A stretch of 37,507 nucleotides of DNA. It comes from an uncultured Bacilli bacterium (GTDB taxonomy: Bacteria > Bacillota_I > Bacilli_A > RF39 > UBA660). The DNA lies in the NCBI GenBank assembly GCA_944331805.1, contig CALVIS010000008.1, positions 1 through 37,507 on the forward strand, written 5' to 3'. The first letter of the stretch is position 1. Each line of letters starts with the position of its first letter. Shown piece after piece: positions 5,101 through 12,620 of the stretch. A model generated the notes under the pieces. The model was not told where the DNA came from. It did no database searches and saw nothing but the letters and a program-made list of their open reading frames with translations. Position numbers and translations under genes: made by a program.

Positions 5101-6195
5101 ATGGAGAATTTGCCTAAGAAAATAGTTAGTATTAAAGCTAATGATGTGTTTATTGAAAAAAACATAAGAAAGTTTGGTTATACCTTGAATGAAAGAACTA
5201 ATGAGGAAATTTATGTTCCTATAGCATTACCAAGATGGACTAGACCAGAAAAATCTTTTGATATTATTGATGATAGTAGAGACTTTGTTAATGGTTTTAA
5301 AGTAGTACAAACAGCTAATAAAGAATATGCTTATGTAAGAGAAGAAGATAATGAATTATTACCATATAGATATGATATTGCCGCAGACTTTAATGAATAT
5401 GGTTATGCTATGGTTGGTAAGGATTCCAAAGTTTCTTGGATAGATAGAAATTTTAGATATTTTGACGCTAATAAAGAAAAGTTTTTAGATGAAGAGAAAG
5501 GTGAATATATTAGATTTAATGGTTTCTTAAGTGTTGGTGAATTTAGTAAAGTAGAGTACCCTTTATCTAAAGTGTGTCGCCTTGGGTATGGTAATACAGT
5601 TAGTTATTTGGGTATTGATGGTAAATTTAAGGAATTTTCTAAATACGATGGAGAAAAGATATGTGAAAATAATTCTAATAAAATTTTTTCATATTGGAGT
5701 ACAGATTTTAATGATAAGGGATATGCTAATGCAAATGGGGGTAGTCTAATTCTACTATCTAGTGGTCATTATTTAACTGCTAAAGATTTAATAAGAATTT
5801 GTGAAGAGAAAGGATTTTTAGATACTATAGGTAGCAGAATAGAAAAACAAGAACAAGAATATTATAAATTCTTAAAAAATGTAAAAGAAAAAACTACAAC
5901 TATTGCCGATGATTTATCTAAACGTAATAATTTAATTGCAGAATTTGGTATAGGTAGTATAGAACTTAAGAAAGAAAAATTAATTTCTAGTTATGGTAAA
6001 GATGTTTATTTAAGAGCATTAACTAATAATTCTTTAGTATGCTTAATTGTTAGAGAAGAAATGCCTGCAGAAATAGTAGATTTAGAATTATTTCAAAGTT
6101 CACTTGCTAGAAGAGGAATACCTTCATATATAGATAAAGAAGAAAATGTTTTCTATTATAACGCCAATAAACATGTAAGAGAACTAAAAAAATAA
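5101..6195 (+). CDS. Hypothetical protein with WG-like repeats
   Basis: 364 aa from the ATG at 5101, chosen because GAAGGA (5089-5094) sits 6 bases upstream; an earlier in-frame ATG at 5083 has no site. The middle carries aromatic/Gly repeat units such as YRYDIAADFNEYGYAMVGK followed by WIDRNFRYF, which resemble WG beta-repeats. The C-terminal third is helical and charged. No signal peptide or membrane helix, so probably cytoplasmic. It lies between priA and the 6267 gene on the same strand. Function not recognised. Confidence 0.6.
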   Translation: MENLPKKIVSIKANDVFIEKNIRKFGYTLNERTNEEIYVPIALPRWTRPEKSFDIIDDSRDFVNGFKVVQTANKEYAYVREEDNELLPYRYDIAADFNEYGYAMVGKDSKVSWIDRNFRYFDANKEKFLDEEKGEYIRFNGFLSVGEFSKVEYPLSKVCRLGYGNTVSYLGIDGKFKEFSKYDGEKICENNSNKIFSYWSTDFNDKGYANANGGSLILLSSGHYLTAKDLIRICEEKGFLDTIGSRIEKQEQEYYKFLKNVKEKTTTIADDLSKRNNLIAEFGIGSIELKKEKLISSYGKDVYLRALTNNSLVCLIVREEMPAEIVDLELFQSSLARRGIPSYIDKEENVFYYNANKHVRELKK

Positions 6196-10588: not shown

Positions 10589-10617
10589 AAATGTGTGTCA
10601 AGTAAGTAAAAACATTA

Positions 10618-10646
10618 TTGATTGTCTTAGTAGATTGTAGTAGTAT
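10618..10646 (+). promoter_or_regulatory. Promoter of leader ORF and surface protein
   Basis: TTGATT (10618-10623), 17 bases, TAGTAT (10641-10646). Confidence 0.5.
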
Positions 10647-10678
10647 TAAATTAACAAAGTAGAAAGGGAGTAATTGTT

Positions 10679-10795
10679 ATGCAAGGTAAGAAAAATGAAA
10701 AAACTATGTTTACAATGTGTTACCTGGGGGGGGGCAGTTTAGTAAATATAAGTAATAATATTACTTTCTTTCATTATGACATAAGAGCAGGATAG
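10679..10795 (+). CDS. 38-aa leader ORF containing a G9 tract
   Basis: ATG at 10679 lies 8 bases after a strong AAAGGGAG site. The 38-codon ORF ends in TAG just inside the terminator at 10783-10813. Nine consecutive G (10726-10734) encode part of YLGGGS; such a run is exceptional in DNA this AT-rich. Loss of one G gives a stop two codons after the tract, and gain of one gives a stop within seven codons, so the tract could phase-vary the peptide. The ORF sits in the leader of the 10846 surface protein and may control it by attenuation; the product itself is not recognised. Confidence 0.5.
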   Translation: MQGKKNEKTMFTMCYLGGGSLVNISNNITFFHYDIRAG

Positions 10796-10813
10796 GTGTA
10801 TTCTGTTCTTTTT
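10783..10813 (+). terminator. Attenuator-like terminator in surface protein leader
   Basis: AAGAGCAG (10783-10790) pairs with CTGTTCTT (10803-10810) with one G-U pair, followed by T residues. It lies 33 bases before the surface protein start, so read-through is needed unless another promoter exists. Confidence 0.55.
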
Positions 10814-10845
10814 AGTGTTAGAAAAAAGTGAAGGAGAGGTAAAAG

Positions 10846-12552
10846 ATGAAAAAACGTGAAAATATTATAATAGTAGTAGTGTTAGTAGTAATGGTGATTG
10901 CAATAGTGGGAGTAAGTTATGCTGCTTTTAACTATAGTAGAACAGGTAATATAAATAGTATAACAACTGGGGCGATAACCATGACTTATGAAGAGACAAG
11001 TAATACTATTTCATTAAATGGAGCCTTACCAACAACAGATAAAACAGGAATGGTAAGACTAAATCCAGGAGAGTACTTTGACTTTAGTGTAAGTAGTGAA
11101 ATAAAAGGTGATGTAAATATTAACTATGAGATAAGTGCTAAAAAAGAAGATGGTAATACAATAGGTGGAGAATATATAAAGTTATATCTAACTAGATTAA
11201 CAGATGATGGAGAAGAAGCTTTAATGGTACCTGAAACATATAATGAAGAGACAAGTGCCAATGATTATACAGGAAGACCAGTAAATGAGATGAGTTTATA
11301 TACAAGTAGTATGAATAGTAGTGAATCTAATAACTATAGATTAAGAATGTATGTAGATGAGAGTTATAATCCACAAGGAGATGGAGGAGGATTAACATTT
11401 AGTGTAAGAATAAATGTGTATGGAAAAGCAGGAGATAAGTATGTACCATTAACTACTCAAGAGATATTAGAAGATAATGAGTTACAAGAAGAAACAACTA
11501 ATATGTTTAATTATGCAAGTAATGGAAGTTATATAGCATCATTTACAGAGGAAGGCCCACAATATGGAAGTGAACCTAGTCAAGTGACTAATGGACTATA
11601 TAGTATGAATGATGAAGATGGGGTAAGTTATTATTATAGGGGAGCGGTAACAAATAATAATGTTCAATTTGGAGAATATGCAAGTGATTATTATGTATAT
11701 GAAAATAATGGGCTTTATTATCAAAGCTTAGAAAGTTGTAGGGAAGCGAATGTTGGATATGAAGATGAGCGTACTCAAGTAAAACTAGCATCACAAGGTG
11801 ATAAAATGTACTGGAAGATAGTGCGAGTAAATGGAGATGGCAGTTTAAGATTAATCTATAATGGAACAAGTGCAAATCCAGATAATAGTGATTTAGTTAA
11901 TTCATTTGCAGTAGGAATAAGTCCATATAATTTAGAGTCTAATGATCCAAAATACACAGGATATACCTATGATAACGGAACAGATTCATTTATAAAAAAA
12001 GAAGTAGATACATGGTATAAAAATACATTGGGAAGTAGTATTTATGATAGTAAAGTAATAGGAGGAAGATTCTGTAGTGATAGTAGTGGATATAAGAATG
12101 CTAGTGAATATGATGTATCAGAAGCAATGTTTGGAGATTTAACGGACGTTTATATGTATTCAAGCATGGGGGATAGACTAGCAAATTTCCAGAAAAATAG
12201 TCCAGGGAACAATGATCCAACATTAAGTTGTCCTGCAACAGAGGAGACATATGGAGGTTCTTATAGATTAAAAGCGGGATTAATAACCGCAGATGAATTA
12301 ACATTAGCAGGAGAAAGTTCGTATGTAGTAGGAAATAGTTATTTAAATCCAGGAGATTCTCAGATGTGGTATTGGAGTATGACGCCGGCCGTTTTCGTTC
12401 TTGGTCGTGCTTTTGTATGGGATGTGAATGAGGATCTGAATTTCAACGATGTGAGTAACGACAGTGCCGTCCGTCCAGTTATCAATGTGACCACTGAAAA
12501 CGGGTTTACGTCTGGAGATGGGACTGCAGAAAATGTTTATGTCATAAGTTAG
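10846..12552 (+). CDS. Large exported surface protein with putative hypervariable C-terminus
   Basis: 568 aa. The N-terminus (MKKRENIIIVV...VGVSYAAF, then NINSITTGAITMTYEE) is a TasA/SipW-type signal anchor and beta-sandwich start, so the protein is exported. The middle carries the module DKMYWKIVRVNGDGSLRLIYNGTSA and later ITADELTLAGES, which I know as a recurrent pattern in surface proteins of uncultivated gut Firmicutes. The end has the C-type-lectin-like pattern WYWSMTP ... F(x4)A(x)V(x2)V(x3)L(x4)V(x4)AVRPVIN. The last ~170 bases differ in composition and codon use from the rest (see the variable-region entry). SD is AAGGAGAGG, 7-8 bases before ATG 10846. Likely role: a surface binder whose ligand specificity can be changed. 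The ligand is unknown. Confidence 0.8.
   Translation: MKKRENIIIVVVLVVMVIAIVGVSYAAFNYSRTGNINSITTGAITMTYEETSNTISLNGALPTTDKTGMVRLNPGEYFDFSVSSEIKGDVNINYEISAKKEDGNTIGGEYIKLYLTRLTDDGEEALMVPETYNEETSANDYTGRPVNEMSLYTSSMNSSESNNYRLRMYVDESYNPQGDGGGLTFSVRINVYGKAGDKYVPLTTQEILEDNELQEETTNMFNYASNGSYIASFTEEGPQYGSEPSQVTNGLYSMNDEDGVSYYYRGAVTNNNVQFGEYASDYYVYENNGLYYQSLESCREANVGYEDERTQVKLASQGDKMYWKIVRVNGDGSLRLIYNGTSANPDNSDLVNSFAVGISPYNLESNDPKYTGYTYDNGTDSFIKKEVDTWYKNTLGSSIYDSKVIGGRFCSDSSGYKNASEYDVSEAMFGDLTDVYMYSSMGDRLANFQKNSPGNNDPTLSCPATEETYGGSYRLKAGLITADELTLAGESSYVVGNSYLNPGDSQMWYWSMTPAVFVLGRAFVWDVNEDLNFNDVSNDSAVRPVINVTTENGFTSGDGTAENVYVIS
12382..12549 (+). other. Candidate DGR variable region (VR)
   Basis: Codons 513-568 of the surface protein. 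GC is about 46% here by my count, against about 33% in the preceding 60 bases. From 12388 to 12465 the residues that fall in the variable slots of the pattern F(x4)A(x)V(x2)V(x3)L(x4)V(x4)AV use 20 codons, of which 18 end in C or T (exceptions TGG and GAG). That is what adenine-specific mutagenesis of AAC/AAT codons in a template repeat produces. The end (12466-12549) is more GC-rich than the gene body and would hold the homing-initiation site. No reverse transcriptase or template repeat is in this window. Confidence 0.55.
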
Positions 12553-12557
12553 TTACT

Positions 12558-12588
12558 AAGTGACTTTCTTTATTGAAGGTCACTTTTC
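12558..12588 (+). terminator. Terminator after surface protein
   Basis: AAGTGACTTTC (12558-12568) and GAAGGTCACTT (12575-12585) pair over 11 bp with one G-U; T-rich tail TTCT. Confidence 0.8.
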
Positions 12589-12620
12589 TATTGTAATTAT
12601 TGCAAATTATCATCAAATTA

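Follow-up and report, generated by a model that had tools for sequence, protein, structure and literature searches.

Evidence for a remote target gene of a diversity-generating retroelement in an uncultured Bacilli bacterium, its template record and its poly-G leader

The closest described relatives of the system considered here are the diversity-generating retroelements (DGRs) of Bordetella phage BPP-1, which comprises mtd, avd, the template repeat (TR) and brt, of Treponema denticola (the TvpA family) and of Thiohalocapsa PB-PSB1. The T. denticola isolate SP32 carries a variable repeat (VR) that matches the template of another strain (PMC4891356), and Thiohalocapsa PB-PSB1 encodes several DGR classes per genome, with targets remote from the cassette and activity in trans inferred (PMC10907252). 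Remote targets are overlooked by searches for VRs that are limited to the vicinity of the reverse transcriptase (RT) (Roux et al. 2021, PMC8144416). For one further element of the locus, a leader upstream of the target gene, the nearest counterpart is the pil1 attenuator of Streptococcus gallolyticus, in which the length of a repeat in a leader open reading frame (ORF) sets how far the ribosome travels and hence whether a terminator stem forms (PMC3894217). Here we describe a stretch of 37,507 nucleotides from an uncultured Bacilli bacterium (the window; GenBank assembly GCA_944331805.1, contig CALVIS010000008.1, positions 1 to 37,507 of the forward strand), in which a gene for a protein of 568 amino acids (10846..12552, + strand) has the features of a DGR target: an N-terminal membrane anchor, an exchangeable N-terminal domain and a conserved C-terminal domain that ends in a VR.

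The system resembles that of BPP-1 in its RT with IG..TSQ and YMDD motifs, its Avd-like partner, the position of the TR beside the RT, a GC-rich 3' block and a target gene whose 3' end carries VR changes on template adenines only. Unlike BPP-1, it is cellular, with one cassette and several remote targets, no hairpin was found right after the VR, and the templates consist mostly of Asn codons. With the T. denticola DGR it shares a bacterial chromosome and remote targets, a likeness of organisation, and the SP32 repeat provides a precedent for what we call foreign barcodes, that is, VRs that fit the template of another genome; in contrast to T. denticola, these are frequent across the genus studied here. 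Thiohalocapsa PB-PSB1 likewise combines several DGR classes, remote targets and inferred trans activity, but its targets are sensors of conflict systems, whereas those described here are single-gene islets for surface proteins. The leader has in common with pil1 a repeat tract in a predicted leader ORF and a terminator stem before the gene, and differs from it in that poly-G replaces the GCAGA repeats, an additional stem that sequesters the Shine-Dalgarno (SD) region is predicted, 14 copies exist in the assembly, and the element is known from its sequence alone. The DGR itself is of a known kind; the record of past templates and the leader are the parts that merit the attention of specialists.

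The variable repeat and the cassette on contig C17

The initial annotation, made from the window only, had proposed a DGR variable region at the end of a surface-protein gene and had noted that neither a template nor an RT lies in the window. Both sit elsewhere in the assembly, on contig C17. The assembly is a short-read bin of 1.37 Mb in 108 contigs, 69% complete with 1.5% contamination. A search of this assembly with the gene end returned VR-like copies on contigs C7, C17, C22, C31, C32, C37, C46 and C57, as well as a shorter copy rich in Asn codons, the TR, at C17:7080-7175. The RT gene is located at C17:8067-9170 (RVT_1, 3e-22), and on C17 the target gene with its VR is followed by TR, spacer, small ORF, Avd-like ORF and RT, in this order. 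The anticipated near-repeat with adenine-biased mismatches next to a DGR-type RT was therefore recovered in the same genome, as a 96-bp sequence 0.9 kb upstream of the RT, a layout that is identical in 12 further genomes. The best match of the RT among solved structures is 8ub7 (3.8e-24), a chain of 328 residues that we take to be the BPP-1 bRT and in which the IG..TSQ and YMDD motifs are likewise present, while a group II intron RT scores 1.9e-10. The Avd-like ORF matches the PHROGs entry "Avd of DGR" (8e-9). RT homologues occur in 32 of the 35 genomes of the genus Candidatus Onthousia, with similar cassettes genus-wide, and the identity of the RT to homologues on viral contigs reaches only 25-34%, so that no phage carrier is indicated.

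The window VR (96 nt, 12383..12478, + strand) aligns to the template repeats without gaps. When the own TR was compared with the VRs on C17 and C7, all 63 non-A positions were unchanged in both, and 17 and 24 of the 33 adenines, respectively, were replaced. These two pairs are free of the selection applied to a larger set of 27 VRs from the genus, namely those that differ from the best-matching template at no more than two non-A positions, for which the pooled figure of 517 changed among 937 adenines and 23 changed among 1655 other positions is descriptive only. The adenine substitutions in this set lead to G (253), T (197) or C (67). In the own genome, six VRs on six contigs show at most four non-A mismatches to some template of the TR family. 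A GC-rich block at the 3' end, GCCGTCCGTCCAG (12466..12478, + strand), is common to VR and TR and is likely a start of mutagenic homing akin to the initiation of mutagenic homing (IMH) element; here the window VR is identical to the own TR, and the A of the block (in CCAG) is intact in 27 of 27 VRs.

The composition of the gene end bears the same mark. The GC content climbs from 32.1% in the gene body (10846-12381) to 45.8% at the gene end (12382-12549) and 51.0% in the VR, against 26.9% in the whole window, in keeping with the jump from about 33% to about 46% reported initially. This rise is explained by a template that is already GC-richer (about 41-43% in most genomes) and by the replacement of adenines, which adds to it; compositional drift was considered as an explanation and rejected. 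The lectin-like pattern that had been described lies at residues 517-547 of the target, and 16 of its 18 variable-slot codons end in C or T by a strict count, compared to 45% of codons in the gene background, which upholds the claimed bias and corrects its exact figure (18 of 20). A descent of these codons from AAC or AAT is borne out by comparison with the best-fitting template, as all 15 of its AAY codons (4 of which remain Asn) still end in C or T in the window VR. The target gene on C31 is identical to the window gene over codons 351-513, without even a synonymous change, and differs from it at 18 of 30 VR codons, 15 of them non-synonymously, a sign of rapid change limited to the VR, in a comparison where a short-read assembly may mix repeated copies and where the C31 gene forms a contig end.

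We conclude that positions 12383-12478 are almost certainly the VR of a DGR target gene, served in trans by a template and by the enzymes encoded on C17; the adenine-restricted mismatches and the cassette both support the initial proposal. By analogy with BPP-1, the RT and the Avd-like protein would copy a TR-containing RNA into cDNA, random bases would be placed opposite template adenines during this synthesis, and the cDNA would replace the VR through homing at the GC-rich 3' block that both repeats share. Template Asn codons (AAY) would thereby give way to a wide range of other residues, at about 15 sites of the target. We infer that the DGR has been active recently. The case illustrates that the variable end alone suffices to identify a DGR, with the enzyme out of view.

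Several other features of the cassette and its kin were observed. The 230 nt of spacer RNA 3' of the TR (C17:7176-7405 and 12 sibling loci) show a mean column identity of 77% across 13 genomes, and their consensus fold contains six covarying pairs in which both sides have changed; no Rfam family was matched by this RNA. A suspected likeness of the ORF at C17:7402-7740 to MutS drew no support from any family match. The own genome carries a second, different DGR (G000:C10 3992-8618, minus strand) with an RT, an Avd (bAvd, 3.7e-22) and a target whose end is of the SSFRLV type; the TR of this DGR (5554-5643) is mismatched at 13 A and 2 non-A positions over 90 nt. RTs of a third group (about 45% identical) are frequent in the genus, and many of these copies span at least one in-frame stop codon, mostly TAA.

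Template alleles and the origin of the window repeat

Several results weigh against the assignment of the window VR to the C17 cassette or against parts of it. Compared with the own C17 template, the window VR is changed not only at 19 of 33 adenines but also at 7 of 63 other positions, with the non-A mismatches in its middle part, and the own assembly, at 69% completeness, may be missing the true template, in which case it was not replaced. A fit to the own template is dispensable where targets are remote and templates have changed or are several, but the misfit limits the case for current activity on this gene. The match of the Avd-like ORF to the NCBIfam Avd family (1.5e-5) lies under the family cut-off, a BPP-1-like hairpin directly 3' of the VR is not supported by DNA folding (z -0.51), and the AlphaFold2 models, built for the whole target and for the C-terminal domain, are of low confidence and do not confirm a C-type lectin fold. 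The analysis covered consensus assemblies, with one genome per species.

The sequence of a second template was predicted from the paralogous VRs before it was found in the sibling species G027 and, with one difference, in G001. Against the G027 TR, the window VR is changed at 18 of 35 adenines and at 1 of 61 other positions (Fisher 5e-9). The base at this sole non-A mismatch (12465) is that of the allele of the own genome, G020 and G030, which suggests that the window VR either derives from an intermediate allele or has received a short 3' patch of the current allele. The VRs on C31 and C37 fit the templates of G029 and G027, respectively, with no change at 61 non-A positions each, and foreign barcodes are also present in siblings that are 92-95% complete (G029 locus L107, G034 L093 and L117, G012 L105 and G011 L101), that is, in at least five genomes across the genus. 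The cassette on C17 is itself a mosaic, with an RT 97-98% identical to that of G030 and G020, a TR region 97.7% identical to that of G020, and an avd 93% identical to that of G027 and G001; the housekeeping DNA of the window is 88-92% identical to G020, G029 and G030. Judging from its non-A positions, the window VR owes most of its length, as last written, to the allele now found in G027, not to the template currently on C17. The most likely route to this state is an exchange of the template segment of the cassette by interspecies recombination, for which we infer the direction of replacement. The non-A positions of VRs would then record the template alleles that have passed through a lineage and make template turnover traceable across species, and a template predicted from VRs while still unseen was verified in a sibling genome. 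As a separate observation, two TRs, the own one and the G034 one, carry TTT in place of the AAT of other templates, as if an A-mutagenised codon had become fixed in the template.

It is possible, though we think it doubtful, that the same DGR holds a second template of the G027 type in the unassembled third of the genome, which wrote the window and C37 VRs. The assembly is just 69% complete and the sibling G024 has two templates, but siblings of 92-95% completeness with a single such template (G029, G034 and G012) show foreign barcodes as well, and a search of the own assembly found no second template. Improbable, too, is a transfer of the target gene from a species with a G027-type template, its VR having been written there: the islet is absent at this site from 14 siblings, and the nearest relative of the target body is a G029 gene (about 91%), yet codons 351-513 are identical to those of the own C31 paralogue, whose VR barcode is of the G029 type, the G027 target is merely 78% similar in the aligned part, and the non-A base at 12465 is of the own-genome type. 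That the window or the cassette contig stems from another species through a binning or assembly error is very unlikely, even in a short-read bin of 108 contigs with repeated target genes liable to mis-joining, since the same siblings are similarly close to the flanks on C8, the window contig (88-92%), and on C17 (90-95%), contamination is 1.5%, and two contigs bear VRs that differ from the C17 template at adenines only. An origin without any DGR, by ordinary paralogue divergence, accompanied by local recombination or by positive selection at binding residues, would suit a mosaic gene family and a tail that stays fairly GC-rich past the VR, but 517 of 540 mismatches fall on template adenines, template, RT and Avd are all present, and neither selection nor recombination would leave C, G and T positions untouched, so that this account can be practically dismissed, ordinary positive selection being ruled out by the template comparison.

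The poly-G leader upstream of the target

Upstream of the target gene lies a leader element (10665-10845) with an ORF of 38 amino acids in the present frame (10679..10795, + strand), which spans a run of 9 G (10726..10734, + strand), a recurring element and a candidate site of slipped-strand mispairing. Farther downstream, a conserved strand beginning with TTACTTTCTTTC (10761..10774, + strand) is predicted to pair with the SD region of the target (10830-10839; RNA fold z -4.29), and this pairing would enclose a terminator-like stem-loop of 12 pairs followed by a T-run (10783..10810, + strand); the predicted fold shows SD pairing in just 14 of 28 distinct leaders. A promoter-like pair, TTGATT-17-TAGTAT, was seen by eye 5' of the leader ORF and is unlisted by a consensus scan. 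Fourteen of the 15 runs of at least seven G in the assembly belong to the leader element, which recurs on C2, C5, C6 (two copies), C9, C11, C17, C22 (two copies), C36, C37, C46 and C67. Most copies precede genes for membrane-anchored proteins that are target-like or related, the C11 copy precedes a gene of a different kind, and some of the leader-bearing genes are perhaps served by another DGR.

The length of the G-run differs among loci, from 5 to 12 G, in a comparison of consensus assemblies where no variation inside one clone was observed. In all 48 leaders (28 of 28 distinct spacers), the sequence from the poly-G to TTACTTTCTTTC is open solely in the frame that is read through as TFFH, with stops in the other two frames; among shuffled spacers, 4.5 of 28 show this on average and 12 at most. 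In this statistic, paralogous spacers are not independent, and the pattern had been noticed before the spacers were judged. Simulated changes of the window run gave read-through with 6, 9 or 12 G and an early stop with 7, 8, 10, 11 or 13 G, and the read-through state was found in 14 of the 48 leaders, including that of the window.

On these grounds the poly-G leader is a candidate slipped-strand ON/OFF switch. In the ON state, a ribosome translating the leader in one of the three frames would pass the anti-SD strand, enter the terminator stem and free the gene, and in the OFF state, in either of the other two frames, it would stop short of the anti-SD strand. We put the chances at about even that DGR targets in the genus combine two independent devices of diversity, with the DGR rewriting the tip of the protein and the poly-G leader gating its synthesis. 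If so, sequence diversification and stochastic expression would be coupled within one repertoire of surface proteins, of which each cell would display a small random subset of hypervariable members. Such a coupling of a DGR with a phase-variable leader was not met in a search of the open literature.

The target gene, its relatives and its insertion site

The target gene belongs to no Pfam family, and its nearest relatives are found in uncultured Bacilli and Tenericutes bins and in Candidatus Onthousia species. The C-terminal domain is conserved and the N-terminal part is swapped among paralogues (those on C7 and C31 have a different one); the protein is membrane-anchored and presumably exposed at the surface. 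The best Foldseek match of the low-confidence C-terminal domain model is weak (8q4e, the C-terminal domain of Legionella Lcl, E 0.33), a profile of the domain had no match among solved structures, and the matches of the full-length model, likewise of low confidence, looked incidental and were set aside. A terminator-like stem-loop of 11 pairs (12558..12585, + strand) follows the gene. The copy on C57 (G000:C57 1641-3118) looks degenerate, with a leader-like start fused to the N-terminal domain and a frame break just 5' of the VR, reflecting either decay or an assembly error.

Leader and target gene form an islet (10589..12620, + strand) that is a clean 2.03-kb insert between a gene for a YqeH-like GTPase, which precedes the target gene, and frr (named from its sequence), which follows it and is conserved in all 35 genomes. 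The corresponding gap is empty in 14 siblings, where it measures 53-73 bp (53-55 bp in 12 of these). In G014 an entire cassette lies between the same yqeH and frr genes, in G011 and G007 the gap holds a target or its N-terminal part, and in G012 and G008 a target or an RT directly adjoins frr. The yqeH-frr gap is a site used recurrently by DGR targets or by whole cassettes (sibling loci L121, L122, L123, L154 and L169).
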